DNA from: Patescibacteria group bacterium
GTDB taxonomy: Bacteria; Patescibacteriota; Microgenomatia; UBA10105; UBA927
NCBI GenBank assembly: GCA_023379025.1
Contig: JAMCTH010000004.1
Coordinates: 83,740-128,197 of the forward strand
Length of the DNA stretch: 44,458 nucleotides
Reading direction: 5' to 3'
Below, piece by piece: positions 21,687-32,637 of the stretch (its first letter is position 1; each line of letters starts with the position of its first letter). The position numbers and the translations under genes were made by a program. Below the pieces are notes generated by a model, which was not told where the DNA came from, ran no database searches, and saw only the letters and a program-made list of their open reading frames with translations.

Positions 21687-22274
21687 CTAAGACGAACCCT
21701 CGAAGACCGTGCTGCTATCATTCGCGGGCTTATCATCGATGATATGCGGAAGTTGAACATCCTTACTGTATAACAGGGCGGTGCGGACGGCCTCGGAACG
21801 CAACCGTTCCCCCTGCTCCCGGCTGCCCCGGCCAAACAGTCCCGGCTTTTTCCTGAGCAGGAATGCCGCGGTCTCAAAGCTGAGTATGGCGTCGGGCGTG
21901 AAATCGCTGCATCCGGTATCCCTACCGGCCGCGGTCTCAAGGAGTACTTCCCCAAACCCGCGCAGGACCGCCAGCCGGCCGACCAGAAGCTCGGCATTCT
22001 TTCCTTTCGGGCCAACCCCGTCCAAACAGCTCATCCGGGTTGTAAAGCCCTGCGTCTGCCCCACGATCATCGAAAGGGTTCCCTCATCGTTGACGGCAGA
22101 CGGAAGCATGCTCCATGACGCCCTGGTAAAGGCGAGGGCGGTACGCACAAAATCCTCGGGATGCTGGTGCGCAAGCCTGACCTCCGTCTGCGTCCGATAC
22201 GAACGAACCAAATCCGGAGCATCTTCAGCCATAGGTAAGATCGCCTCATCCATTCCCCGGTCTCCTGTCATCAT
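21687..22274 (-). CDS. Hypothetical protein, 195 aa
   Basis: ORF with protein-like composition; no family recognised. Confidence 0.55.
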   Translation of the reverse strand: MMTGDRGMDEAILPMAEDAPDLVRSYRTQTEVRLAHQHPEDFVRTALAFTRASWSMLPSAVNDEGTLSMIVGQTQGFTTRMSCLDGVGPKGKNAELLVGRLAVLRGFGEVLLETAAGRDTGCSDFTPDAILSFETAAFLLRKKPGLFGRGSREQGERLRSEAVRTALLYSKDVQLPHIIDDKPANDSSTVFEGSS

Positions 22275-22664: not shown

Positions 22665-23402
22665 ATGACACTCCTTGTTATACTCCTTGCCGAAGGCATC
22701 GGCCTGTATCTCGTCTCCCGCGCGCTCACACAACGGCTGTACGACGTATTCTTCTTCCTTTCAGGCGGCCGGCGAAGTGCGGCAGTAAGTCTCACGACTG
22801 CGCTCCTTTTCCCCGGCACCGTGATCCACGAACTTTCCCACCTCTTTACGGCAGAAATCCTGGGCGTCCGGACGGGAAAACTGACGCTTGCCCCCGAAAA
22901 TATCCGCGACCCGGACATCCAGACCGGCTCGGTAGCCGTTGCCCAAAGCGATCCGTTCCGGCGCGCACTGATCGGTCTTGCGCCGTTTTTTCTTGGTATC
23001 GGAGCCCTTCTTGCGGTCTCTTACGGGCTATCACGGGAATTTTCCGGTCAAACTATATCAACCCTTCTCCAAGGAACCGTTTCACTCAATTTCCTGACCA
23101 TTCTTCTCCTCTATCTCATATTTGCCATATCCACCACCATGTTTCCATCGGGAGCCGACTTCAAGGGCACCCCGGCATTGGCGTTGACCATCGGAATATT
23201 TCTCCTTCTCGCATATCTGGTAGGATTTCGGTTTTCCCTGAGCGGACAGGCTCTTTCCGTAGCGGAGGGCGTCATGACAACCCTCCAAAACAGTCTGGGG
23301 GTCATTTTGGCAGTCGACCTTATACTACTGCTACTAATTACCGTTGTGGTTGCCGTAATGCGGAAAATACTTCATTCCCGCTTGATTCCAAGCAATACCT
23401 AA
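22665..23402 (+). CDS. Membrane-embedded metallopeptidase-like protein (HExxH)
   Basis: Multi-TM; FPGTVIHELSHLFTAEILGV contains HELSH. Confidence 0.65.
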   Translation: MTLLVILLAEGIGLYLVSRALTQRLYDVFFFLSGGRRSAAVSLTTALLFPGTVIHELSHLFTAEILGVRTGKLTLAPENIRDPDIQTGSVAVAQSDPFRRALIGLAPFFLGIGALLAVSYGLSREFSGQTISTLLQGTVSLNFLTILLLYLIFAISTTMFPSGADFKGTPALALTIGIFLLLAYLVGFRFSLSGQALSVAEGVMTTLQNSLGVILAVDLILLLLITVVVAVMRKILHSRLIPSNT

Positions 23403-24254
23403 CTACCTACGCCCGTATGCCGCAAACACGGATAGGATTGTTTCATCCAGCTCATTCAGTCCATCCGAGGAATGTAAAGAAACGTAGTTCTCCCGCGCTC
23501 CGGCGGAATTGGCGGCAAAACTTACTGCATCGGAAAACTGTAACAGATATGCCGCCAAATTCGCATCAGTTTTTCCGACGGGGGAAACGAGCGGTGTTTC
23601 TCCGAGTGCGGCCAGAACCCCAAAATGATGCTCAGGAATACCAAGGACCTCCATCATGCATGCCAGCTTATATGCCTTCATACCAAACACAACCATTTCG
23701 TCCAGCACCAACACATGAGCGGGTAACGCACTGCCGCCATTATATTCAGAGAGCTTGTCTCCAAGCTCTCTCACGTCATCCAAGGGACTGTCTGCGGTGG
23801 CGCGGCCGCTTTTATAGATCCGAGAGGAGATGCTCACCCATGGTATCGTTTGAAATGCTTCTCCGGCAGAAAACTGAAATGTAACCGGAAGAATCCGTTC
23901 TGCACTGCTCCCGACAAGGGCGATCACGTCCGGAGGATTCTCCGCAATCCGGCAGAAAAGGCTATCTCTGGCCGTATGCCATGCATCAAGGATCTCGTCC
24001 GTGGGTCGGATGCCCTCGAGAGTAAAGGCAAATCCCCAATCTGAAGAACGTTCAAAATCAAACCGTGCCTTACGCGGATCAAACAGATATCTGGGATGAG
24101 CCAAATCCGCAAGAAGTTCCAGGCACCAATCTTCATGGACCTGCTGATCGGCAACGAGCCTGCGATTTAGGTTCCGTGAAATCCAGTGCGGTTCCCATTC
24201 TGCCGGGAGTGACATAGTGATATGGATTGTATCAACAGGCCATTTCCTATTCAA
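23403..24254 (-). CDS. Divergent phosphoribosyltransferase-like paralog P1
   Basis: PPDVIALVGSSAERILP...HVLVLDEMVVFGMKAYKLACMMEVLGI...GKTDANLAAYLLQFSDAVSFAANSAG. Confidence 0.6.
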   Translation of the reverse strand: MNRKWPVDTIHITMSLPAEWEPHWISRNLNRRLVADQQVHEDWCLELLADLAHPRYLFDPRKARFDFERSSDWGFAFTLEGIRPTDEILDAWHTARDSLFCRIAENPPDVIALVGSSAERILPVTFQFSAGEAFQTIPWVSISSRIYKSGRATADSPLDDVRELGDKLSEYNGGSALPAHVLVLDEMVVFGMKAYKLACMMEVLGIPEHHFGVLAALGETPLVSPVGKTDANLAAYLLQFSDAVSFAANSAGARENYVSLHSSDGLNELDETILSVFAAYGRR

Positions 24255-24309
24255 ATGCCGCTTCTACAAAAGCTCCGCAATCGGCATGCCCCATAGCGGC
24301 AGCCCTATG

Positions 24310-25131
24310 CTAGATCATCCCGATCCCCTGCCAGTAAGCTGCATGGACAGAGGAAAGAAGAGCGTTGAGCTCTGATACCTCCCGGGGGTCGCCGCGGGAG
24401 ATGGTCAAAAAATCACGGATTTTATCCGGGTTTGCCGCAAAGGATTCTGCCTGCTGGAGGTTATACATAAAGGCAAAAAACGTAGGGTCCGTACTTCCGG
24501 CAAACACGAGGTCGGATTCTCTGTGGCTGGCAAGCGCCGCAATGCGGATGTCGCCGACGCCGATGCCTTTGAGCGTTCTCCAGCTCGCATGTGCCTTACT
24601 TGCGCCGGCGACGATATCGTCCACGAGAACAAGCGAACCGGGAAGGCGTCCCGTTCTTCCGGCAAGAAGCCACCGGAGATACCCGGGATCTCCCGGTATA
24701 ATGAGGTGTTCATCCTGATGTCTGTATTTATAGAGAGCATATGCGCCGTATTCATCCAGCCACACCGTGGGGATCCCAAAAAAATCCGTATCTTTTTCCG
24801 ATACCCCAAAGCTAAGCGGCAGAAGAGACAGCGCGCTTTTCCCGGAAACGAGCAGTGCGTCCGGCCGGGCTTCTTCAATAAACCTTCCAACCCCGAGGGC
24901 CGCCGCATACCACTCCGAGAGTATCTCCGGCCCGGCGGAAAGACCGGAAAAGACAAAATAGGCTTCCTCCTCTATACCGCTATACCCCCGTAGCCTGTCC
25001 CAGTTATAGACGTAGCGCGGATCTGCCGCATGTAAAGCATCGCCATACTGTTCAAACGGAGCAAAATCTGCCCGTGCTGCCTCAGCTTCACTCGGATCAA
25101 CCGGTTTGGGAAATTCGTGCGGAAAAACCAT
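24310..25131 (-). CDS. Divergent phosphoribosyltransferase-like paralog P2 (best-preserved PRPP-like motif)
   Basis: RPDALLVSGKSALSLLPLSFG...SLVLVDDIVAGASKAHASWRTLKGIGV...GSTDPTFFAFMYNLQQAESFAANPDK. Confidence 0.65.
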   Translation of the reverse strand: MVFPHEFPKPVDPSEAEAARADFAPFEQYGDALHAADPRYVYNWDRLRGYSGIEEEAYFVFSGLSAGPEILSEWYAAALGVGRFIEEARPDALLVSGKSALSLLPLSFGVSEKDTDFFGIPTVWLDEYGAYALYKYRHQDEHLIIPGDPGYLRWLLAGRTGRLPGSLVLVDDIVAGASKAHASWRTLKGIGVGDIRIAALASHRESDLVFAGSTDPTFFAFMYNLQQAESFAANPDKIRDFLTISRGDPREVSELNALLSSVHAAYWQGIGMI

Positions 25132-25167
25132 GTATGGTCCTTTCTTCCGGATACGGCAGATCAGACT

Positions 25168-25785
25168 TCAGAATGCAATATCCAGATCATTGAATGGAGA
25201 ACCTGCTATAACATCACCCGTTTGCATGATCGGTACGATGGATGCAGCAGCGAGCGTTATATGGAGATCGACTACCTCTATCATGTCAGACGGCAACCGG
25301 TACGGGCTATAGTCCCGTGCTACGAGCCCGGAAGGCGACAGGATGGTGAGCGGTTCTTCCTCTCCCGGCCGGATGGTCAATGAAAATTTCCACGCTTCGA
25401 CCTCTCCGGTGGTATCCGGCTCGCCGCGAAGCGTATCTCCTTTGATGATACCCATTTCTTTATGATAAAAATGGAGTCCGACCGCACGGCCGTCATGTGG
25501 AACGTGCACACAAATCAGATCATAGGAGGCCACATCCGGCATAGGCATATACTCATTCACCACCCAAAGCGCACTTCCCTTGCCGTCATCGGTTCCGAAC
25601 CACGCAACGACCGTATTGAGATCTCTTGCAAGGAGCGGGTACGTGTACGGACTCTCGTCAATCCGTCCGCTGTCACGGAGCCGTTGTAAATACTCCGATA
25701 CGACAACGAGCTCACTATGGGTAACCGTTTCAGCAGTACGTGCAGCCGGCCAAGGCACTGATGCGTCCCAGGTATCGCTAAACAT
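25168..25785 (-). CDS. Hypothetical protein, 205 aa (family B)
   Basis: Intact ORF; C-terminus DMIEVVDLHITLAAASIVPIMQTGDVIA resembles the remnant at 26739-26871. Confidence 0.6.
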   Translation of the reverse strand: MFSDTWDASVPWPAARTAETVTHSELVVVSEYLQRLRDSGRIDESPYTYPLLARDLNTVVAWFGTDDGKGSALWVVNEYMPMPDVASYDLICVHVPHDGRAVGLHFYHKEMGIIKGDTLRGEPDTTGEVEAWKFSLTIRPGEEEPLTILSPSGLVARDYSPYRLPSDMIEVVDLHITLAAASIVPIMQTGDVIAGSPFNDLDIAF

Positions 25786-25880
25786 AGTGGGAAACCCGGA
25801 TTTCCCCCGATGGCACCGGGAGCGAGCTCGTCGAAGGACAATCCTGAGTTTTCAGAGTATAGTATAAACCTATAGTTCTT

Positions 25881-26732
25881 TCAACCTTCAATGTTTTTCT
25901 CTGAAAGGATACCAATCGCTTGATCAAGTATGCCGGGAAGTTCATAAAAATCAGGCTCCGGCGTGCCCTCTGCCTCGTAGAGCGCACGCCATCCGTGCGA
26001 ATCTTCCGAAAAACTCACTGCATTGGCAAGATTTATGACATACCCCGCAAAATCACGATCCGTCGAGCCGACGAGAGAAACAAGATCGTTTTTCCGGAAC
26101 GCAGAAAGAACTCCGACAGTTACCCTGGGAATACCTAATTCTCGCATATGGATATAACTGATATATGCTTTTTCCGCACCCCCGATACGGTCATCAAGGG
26201 TAAGCACGTGTCTCGGAGGATGTTCATCCCATATCCCAAGAGACTCGCCCATTTTGGTCAGCATCGCCTCATGCTTTTCCGCCCGCTCATCGGCCATTCT
26301 ATGGGTATAAAGTGTATTGGAATCAAACCATACGACTGGTATGCCCGCGATATGACCATCGGCAAGCGCTGGAACGGCCGCTCCGAGAAGACGCAGCCCG
26401 CTTTTTCCGGATACAACAATTCTATCCGGCTCCGTCCGCGCAATCTGCCGCTCCAGCTTTTCCGCAGCTTCATGCCATTTCTCACAGATATAGTCATCCG
26501 GAAAGACACTCGCGAGCTGAAAGTGCCCTGCAAGTTCCATGGCCGAAGCATACGGACCGGAATAATTGATATACCGCTCACTGACACGAAGGCATGCCGG
26601 ATCGAGGACGTCAAATTGCGTTGACGCCTTGAACATCCTTCTGTCCTCGCTCCCCGGCACACAGTACGGATGCCATATATCCGGTCTGGTCATACTGGAA
26701 GGGATTGTACAGACAACCCGGTCGGCAGACAA
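25881..26732 (-). CDS. Divergent phosphoribosyltransferase-like paralog P3 (likely ATG start within SMTRPDIWHP, near 26693)
   Basis: EPDRIVVSGKSGLRLLGAAVPAL...HVLTLDDRIGGAEKAYISYIHMRELGI...GSTDRDFAGYVINLANAVSFSEDSHG. Confidence 0.6.
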   Translation of the reverse strand: MSADRVVCTIPSSMTRPDIWHPYCVPGSEDRRMFKASTQFDVLDPACLRVSERYINYSGPYASAMELAGHFQLASVFPDDYICEKWHEAAEKLERQIARTEPDRIVVSGKSGLRLLGAAVPALADGHIAGIPVVWFDSNTLYTHRMADERAEKHEAMLTKMGESLGIWDEHPPRHVLTLDDRIGGAEKAYISYIHMRELGIPRVTVGVLSAFRKNDLVSLVGSTDRDFAGYVINLANAVSFSEDSHGWRALYEAEGTPEPDFYELPGILDQAIGILSEKNIEG

Positions 26733-26738
26733 GTGGGC

Positions 26739-26871
26739 TCATGCATGCGGATCGGTGATCCGCGAGATGATCATGCTTGCGGCCGCAATCTCAAAATGCT
26801 CAAGGAAAACCGCCGGCATCTCGTCCAAAAACCCGTCGACCGGCCACACCCTAAACATCCGCGCGGCATTC
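26739..26871 (-). pseudogene. 5'-truncated remnant of a family-B gene, abutting REP copy A
   Basis: AARMFRVWPVDGFLDEMPAVFLEHFEIAAASMIISRITDPHA*; compare DMIEVVDLHITLAAASIV in the 205-aa protein. Confidence 0.5.
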
Positions 26872-26900
26872 GCTTCCAGGGTCGGACCCTGAAGCCTATA
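26872..26900. repeat. REP-like palindrome copy A
   Basis: GCTTCCAGGGTCGGACCCTGAAGCCTATA. Confidence 0.9.
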
Positions 26901-26978
26901 ATCCGATCATGGACTTAAAACTAAAATTTTGTAAACTATATAACTGCATTTTCCCACAGGGAATGAGAAAATGAAAAT

Positions 26979-27638
26979 ATGCCGGGCAAAAATGTCGTAA
27001 AAACATATATAGAAAACGGCTATTATCATCTCTACAATCGTGGGGTGAGACAATCTCCCATCTTTCTACACAATCCGGATTATGCCTATTTTTTATATCT
27101 TCTGAACTCTTATCTGGCACCTGAGCATGAAACCGATCCGAAGACAGGTCTATTGAACCCAATGTATCGCGGAGGCGAAGTTAAATTACTCTGTTACTGT
27201 CTTATGCCAAACCACTTTCATCTTCTTATAAAACAACTGTCCAAAAATGGAATGACACGACTCACACGCCAACTGTTCACCTCGTACGCCATGCATATCA
27301 ATATGAGATATCATCTAAAAGGCAGTTTATTTCAAGGAAAACTTCGGGCCGTACTTATTGAAAGTGAACCTTATCTCCTTCATCTCAGCAGATACATTCA
27401 TACCAACCCAAAACCATTACTCCAAAAAGCTGCACCGTTATCATCATATAGCTTTTCTAGTTACCCAAATTATTTGGGCATTCTGAATAGCTCCTGGATA
27501 CATGCAGATGAAATTCTTTCTTTATTTGAAACGGACGGAGCAAGAATATCACGCGCTTCCGAGAGGTATCAAAATTTTGTTGAACGAGAAGATATTGATA
27601 GCATCTCTGTTTTGAAGGATCTCATACTCGAATCTTGA
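26979..27638 (+). CDS. REP-associated tyrosine transposase / Y1 (IS200-like) transposase
   Basis: GYYHLYNRGVRQ, YCLMPNHFHLLIKQ (HUH), LLHLSRYIHTNP (candidate catalytic Tyr). Confidence 0.92.
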   Translation: MPGKNVVKTYIENGYYHLYNRGVRQSPIFLHNPDYAYFLYLLNSYLAPEHETDPKTGLLNPMYRGGEVKLLCYCLMPNHFHLLIKQLSKNGMTRLTRQLFTSYAMHINMRYHLKGSLFQGKLRAVLIESEPYLLHLSRYIHTNPKPLLQKAAPLSSYSFSSYPNYLGILNSSWIHADEILSLFETDGARISRASERYQNFVEREDIDSISVLKDLILES

Positions 27639-27659
27639 GAGATGAGCAGCAAGGATCTA

Positions 27660-27688
27660 GCTTCCAGGGTCGGACCCTGAAGCCTATA
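27660..27688. repeat. REP-like palindrome copy B
   Basis: Identical 29 nt to copy A; ends 1 nt before the lepA ORF. Confidence 0.9.
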
Positions 27689-32618: not shown

Positions 32619-32637
32619 GGCTTCAGGGTCGGACCCT
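32619..32637. repeat. Partial REP-like palindrome copy C
   Basis: GGCTTCAGGGTCGGACCCT. Confidence 0.75.

Follow-up and report, generated by a model that had tools for sequence, protein, structure and literature searches.

Three neighbouring paralogs with a probable type I phosphoribosyltransferase core and an altered PRPP loop in a Microgenomatia genome

Three neighbouring minus-strand genes of a patescibacterial genome, termed P1, P2 and P3, encode divergent paralogs that very probably possess the core of type I phosphoribosyltransferases (PRTases) and that form a small subfamily of this known fold, undescribed in the libraries searched. They lie in a 44,458-nucleotide stretch of contig JAMCTH010000004.1, here called the window, and their coordinates, together with those of the motifs and sites discussed below, are collected in Table 1.

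Gene layout and paralogy

A preliminary description of this DNA, made from the letters alone, had drawn attention to three minus-strand proteins with common motifs, all of which are present. The early motif reads VSGKSALSLL in P1 and VSGKSGLRLL in P3 and is degenerate in P2 (LVGSSAERIL), the strand followed by an acidic pair is found as LVLVDDIVAGASK (P1), HVLVLDEMVVFGMK and HVLTLDDRIGGAEK, and a C-terminal block of the form G(S/K)TD...A(V/E)SF occurs in P1-P3. Pairwise BLASTP identifies this likeness as homology, with alignments of 200-270 aa scoring 53.5-90.9 bits (E-values of 6e-13, 6e-21 and 5e-26) at about 30% identity (27-31%); as judged from these alignments P1, P2 and P3 are true homologues and hence paralogs. 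No additional copies of the family were found in their own genome (1.11 Mb, 12 contigs).

The same description had called the genes tandem, which holds insofar as the three paralogs are neighbours, but the row is interrupted by P4, a coding-like orphan located between P3 and P1 that had been overlooked. Measured against the codons used by the remaining genes of the window, P1-P4 look like coding genes, with 0.17-0.29 bits per codon for the frame in which each is read and negative values for the other frames, and the reading frames of P1, P2 and P3 are all intact. P4 was considered as a further paralog and as a split domain, and both ideas were rejected (hhalign probability 0.1%); by this comparison it is not homologous to P1-P3. 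It matches no family, and no convincing relative was found among 59 genomes (none other at E<=0.1).

Table 1. Features of the paralog cluster and their positions in the window
Feature	Positions	Strand	Evidence
P3, PRTase-fold paralog, 270 aa from ATG	25881..26693	-	BLASTP, AlphaFold2, fold matches, coding score
P1, PRTase-fold paralog, 273 aa, most canonical loop	24310..25131	-	PF00156, BLASTP, AlphaFold, coding score
P2, PRTase-fold paralog, 270 aa from ATG, most degenerate loop	23403..24215	-	BLASTP, coding score
P4, orphan gene, 205 aa, between P3 and P1	25168..25785	-	Coding score, no family
P3 first-strand loop VSGKS, PPi-loop position	26400..26414	-	Motif, hhalign alignment
P1 first-strand loop VSGKS, PPi-loop position	24835..24849	-	Motif, hhalign alignment
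P2 first-strand loop LVGSS, PPi-loop position	23904..23918	-	Motif
P3 PRPP-loop equivalent DDRIGGAEKA	26166..26195	-	hhalign alignment, register
P1 PRPP-loop equivalent DDIVAGASKA	24592..24621	-	PF00156, hhalign alignment, register
P2 PRPP-loop equivalent DEMVVFGMKA	23673..23702	-	hhalign alignment, register
TTGTCT-N17-TACAAT, promoter-like, 10 nt ahead of P3 ATG, near-leaderless	26704..26732	-	
TTGAAT-N17-TACAAT, promoter-like, 10 nt ahead of P2 ATG, P3-like architecture	24226..24254	-	
TTGAAA-N17-TATACT, promoter-like, upstream of P4-P1	25856..25884	-	

Starts and promoter-like sites

The mechanically called reading frames of P3 and P2 extend to TTG codons at 26732 and 24254, respectively. 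Both TTGs belong to the first hexamer of a promoter-like site and are more likely -35 boxes than starts, the true starts being likely the ATGs at 26693 (P3) and 24215 (P2), which both align with the ATG of P1. An N-terminal likeness of P2 and P3 (VxTIxxxM) was rejected as conserved promoter DNA translated as protein. Given the layout that P2 and P3 share, a promoter followed by 10 nt and the ATG, these two genes probably have near-leaderless transcripts of their own, and the duplicated unit probably took in the promoter, a reading drawn from consensus sites. A strict form of the promoter pattern occurs twice in the window, only at P2 and P3, where shuffled sequences lead one to expect 0.003, a figure that is illustrative since the pattern was defined after the sites had been seen. 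In place of this layout, P1 carries a Shine-Dalgarno-like GGAAGAAAGGA upstream.

Evidence for a phosphoribosyltransferase core

Searches with the single proteins return little. P1 matches PF00156 at E 0.021 (14.6 bits, residues 167-206, on the loop), below the curated cut-off of 26.3 bits, and P2 and P3 obtain no score at all. Nothing usable for P1-P3 came from NCBIfam, PHROGs or PADLOC, the PADLOC defence models gave zero matches for P1-P4 at E<=5, and a sequence search of the PDB returned chance matches together with PRTase-type ones that were no more than weak, to a purine PRTase (1vdm, E 0.15) and to an OPRT (1lh0, E 1.5). The earlier view that the proteins match no well-characterised family is therefore upheld for Pfam, NCBIfam, PHROGs and PADLOC, none of which has a family that would suit them.

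The core is recognised when profiles are compared. A profile of four members, P1-P3 and the relative described below, aligned by hhalign, at a probability of 85.9% and E 5.3e-6 across the core, with the XPRT-like PRTases of related genomes (17 sequences), the acidic pair of the family falling on the DD of ordinary PRTases, and 23 window proteins used as controls reached at most 0.8%. For a three-row profile the corresponding values are 41.5% and E 2.7e-4, with controls at <=3.1%. The four-row profile also matches three unrelated genomes of the class (E 2.5e-4 to 4.8e-4), in each case within the loop region (profile positions 145-200); two of these three matches were read (L018, L019) and are ordinary PRTases (VLVVDDLTDTGEQ, VLVVDDVVAHGST) matched across the PRPP loop. 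Further weak matches (L011-L013) were discarded, as they do not read as PRTases.

Predicted structures, of medium confidence, point the same way, and the proposal of a type I PRTase-like core made in the preliminary description is borne out by both approaches. AlphaFold2 modelled P1 from 3 rows with a pLDDT of 52 and a pTM of 0.57, and P3 from 4 rows with a pLDDT of 68 and a pTM of 0.72, most of the P3 core lying at 73-92 and its first 70 residues being unreliable. Among the 50 best PDB matches found by Foldseek, type I PRTases account for 38 with the P1 model and 44 with the P3 model, the matches of both being chiefly HPRT, PyrR and XPRT with a probability near 1. Because the E-values of these fold matches are only 1e-3 and the TM scores modest, at 0.3 for the query and no higher than 0.51 for the target, the models support the fold and not a subfamily. 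The matches of P3 include a few phosphosugar isomerases, and a viral structure comparison gave low-quality fold matches, a few of which are PRTases. In the P3 model, the fourth core strand is followed by a short strand and three helices in place of a typical hood. No Pfam domain was found in the N-terminal region of P1-P3, which in P3 is modelled without confidence, nor any domain for binding DNA or RNA in P1-P3. A predicted structure lacking a PRTase core and a match to a characterised family, the two outcomes named beforehand as speaking against the proposal, were both looked for and neither occurred.

An altered PRPP loop

The acidic pair of the PRPP loop grips the ribose hydroxyls. It is retained here, as had been proposed, in the form of DD in P1 and P3 and of DE in P2 and in the relative from Microgenomates GW2011_GWA2_44_7, the loop of which reads DEFIDGATKA. 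With the first acidic residue as position 1, every one of the four members has Lys at position 9, where each of 29 PRTases from the own and related genomes has Thr or Ser, so the suspected replacement of the loop Thr is real; position 10 is Ala in 4/4, position 6 is G or F and position 7 is A or G. The canonical signature, which we take to be a run of small residues ending in Thr/Ser ((T/S)GxT, the PROSITE PS00103 pattern), discriminates less well: none of the four members matches a PS00103-type pattern, yet only 5/29 local PRTases do, and position 9, Thr/Ser in 29/29, is for this reason the better test.

P1 had been taken for the most degenerate copy, which is contradicted by its loop, the least degenerate of the three and the sole one with a PF00156 score. 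The most degenerate is P2, the furthest diverged paralog, which lacks SGKS and has FGMK in the loop. Likewise, the copies had been said to diverge at the catalytic loop, and although the Thr is indeed replaced, this is not simple degeneration, since the same Lys-Ala and the same loop-helix length are found in all four members. The spacing from Asp to Gly over the loop and the following helix is 21 residues in 4/4, equal to that in the genome's ComF and PRPP synthase, so that no net residue has been lost. Because Lys-Ala is common to copies that are 22-32% identical and to two distant genomes, the loop looks, at the level of the alignment, like a conserved alternative and not like random decay. 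A one-residue deletion that would restore Thr/Ser (GAT/GAS) in P1 and the GW2011_GWA2_44_7 relative is disfavoured by the unchanged spacing; a local shift of the loop, compensated elsewhere and with the same effect in these two proteins, is conceivable. Position-9 Thr is not strictly needed in every active PRTase, some OPRTs carrying Ala, and Lys is therefore no proof of lost activity.

Distribution and neighbourhood

With a profile of the three paralogs, one clear relative was found in the same class, in Microgenomates GW2011_GWA2_44_7 (E 7.7e-9; L053:2494-3324), a single copy without the long N-terminal extension. Outside its own genome the family thus occurs in 1/384 sampled genomes of the class, while it was found in none of 384 genomes of a phylum sample that partly overlaps the class sample and in none of 26 other genomes of the order. 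Phage records yielded no family match, plasmids three chance-level matches only, and scans of genome contigs no member beyond the GW2011_GWA2_44_7 locus. The family is accordingly very rare and patchy and represents a lineage-specific expansion in one reduced Microgenomatia genome. The GW2011_GWA2_44_7 gene has an unrelated gene on one side and, on the other, a comEA-like gene of opposite orientation, and the suggested neighbourhood survey of homologs, having just this one further locus to draw on, revealed no conserved partner.

Relation to known systems and possible role

XPRT/HPRT-kind type I PRTases (PF00156), the best profile-profile and fold matches of P1-P3, share with them the order of core strands and helices, the Gly/Ser loop after the first strand and the acidic pair. 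In contrast to these enzymes, P1-P3 fall below the Pfam cut-off, have Lys-Ala in place of the loop Thr/Ser and about 70 additional aa at the N-terminus, and carry a helical C-terminal block where a hood is usual. The PRTase fold is also that of the Bacillus proteins PurR and PyrR, and the best PDB matches include structures of PyrR, but these are regulatory proteins with a winged helix or RNA binding, of which there is no evidence in P1-P3. In PurR, the PRTase pocket has been turned into a sensor (PMC8789054). ComFC is a further case of a PRTase domain used outside salvage, and here the loop matters for nucleotide binding, which is abolished by T165A at the equivalent of position 9 (PMC9005727). 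ComFC, however, has an N-terminal Cys4 zinc finger and the loop DDIITTGTT, whereas P1-P3 lack a Cys4 cluster and differ in the loop, and the genome has a separate ComFC (L005). A looser parallel is offered by PRTases of polyvalent proteins and Ter systems, which are stand-alone or tandem and of unknown role, the making or sensing of a nucleotide having been proposed for them (PMC5512222); P1-P3 have no Pfam or PADLOC match and no Ter or phage genes were seen adjoining them.

The genome encodes a PRPP synthase (Prs), an OPRT, an XPRT-like enzyme, one further PRTase and ComFC. With Prs, OPRT, the XPRT-like enzyme and ComFC present, basic salvage is covered, and a phosphoribosyl- or nucleotide-binding role outside salvage is therefore favoured. 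Taken as a whole, the best explanation, namely that P1-P3 are divergent type I PRTase-fold proteins that bind phosphoribosyl compounds or nucleotides outside nucleobase salvage, stands in our estimation at about an even chance. A small PRTase-fold subfamily would then have expanded through tandem duplication in one Microgenomatia genome, its 5'-phosphate loop having changed in common from (T/S)GxT to xGAxKA at unchanged loop-helix length. The proteins would bind PRPP or a nucleotide, with the Lys taking over or altering the phosphate contact, and the three copies may be tuned to different ligands or assembled in one mixed oligomer. We infer either sensing or an unusual transfer reaction; by analogy with PurR, PyrR and ComFC, a function as ligand-binding sensors or adaptors appears most likely, while the one other locus provided no conserved neighbourhood in support of sensing over catalysis.

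Among the alternatives, P1-P3 could be active PRTases with an unusual acceptor, such as a modified base, an amine or another nucleophile, the paralogs differing in acceptor and the Lys-Ala loop still holding the 5'-phosphate. This is possible but rather doubtful: the acidic pair is kept, as is a first loop rich in Gly and Ser where the PPi loop would lie, the genome has a PRPP synthase and Gly at loop position 6 is also seen in an ordinary solved enzyme (Legionella, DDILDGGIT), yet the loop Thr/Ser is replaced in every member, the SGKS loop is gone in P2, and biosynthetic neighbours are absent in a family too rare for a pathway to be inferred. A more far-reaching proposal, which we think unlikely, is a "Lys-loop" PRTase-fold family in which P1-P3, perhaps with P4, would be the subunits of one machine for sensing or making a phosphoribosyl compound of an unusual kind, such as a signalling nucleotide, with Lys replacing the loop Thr.

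It is improbable that the genes are degenerate remnants, that is, duplicated salvage PRTases decaying without function, as the reading frames are all intact with host-like codon usage, the promoter layout is kept in P2 and P3, and Lys-Ala and the 21-residue spacing recur in 4/4 members, the distant genome included; the strong divergence (about 30% identity), the departures in the loop and the very patchy distribution would nonetheless agree with such decay. Slightly less credible still is a Rossmann-like fold of a different kind, binding nucleotides or sugars, in which a DD motif arose by chance. Single-sequence family searches without a result above cut-off and the few phosphosugar isomerases among the fold matches are compatible with it, but they are opposed by a profile-profile E-value of 5e-6 with clean controls and by the share of type I PRTases among the best PDB matches of two different paralogs (38/50 and 44/50).

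On the preferred reading, one of the oldest folds of nucleotide metabolism gains a divergent branch with P1-P3, in a reduced Microgenomatia genome that expanded this fold while already holding salvage enzymes, and the consistent rewriting of their phosphate loop offers a clean test of whether Lys can substitute for the loop Thr. At present this amounts to a well-supported fold assignment for orphan proteins, the importance of which would be much greater if ligand binding or signalling proved true.

Flanking genes and an adjoining transposase element

Downstream of P2 lies a convergent plus-strand gene (22665-23402) for a membrane protein with weak M50B peptidase likeness (E 0.048), and the stops of the two genes abut (23402/23403). 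A coding-like minus-strand ORF of 195 aa at 21687-22274, in the same GC-richer stretch, belongs to no known family and is another orphan. On the other side, the region of interest had been extended to 26871, but positions 26733-26871 are part of no paralog; this minus-strand segment, upstream of P3 and beside a transposase repeat, reads as a possible gene tail, ends with VWPVDGFLDEMPAVFLEHFEIAAASMIISRITDPHA and a stop, and is possibly a truncated gene. Next to it, a Y1-type (IS200-like, RAYT-like) transposase gene (26979-27638, plus strand; PF01797, E 8e-7) sits between two identical 29-nt direct repeats, GCTTCCAGGGTCGGACCCTGAAGCCTATA; from its sequence features this region (26872-27688) is a REP-like element with its transposase. 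Lone copies of the repeat core CAGGGTCGGACCCTG occur at 32624 and 34137, and GGGTCGGACCC is found six times in the genome, its backwards control giving 0.
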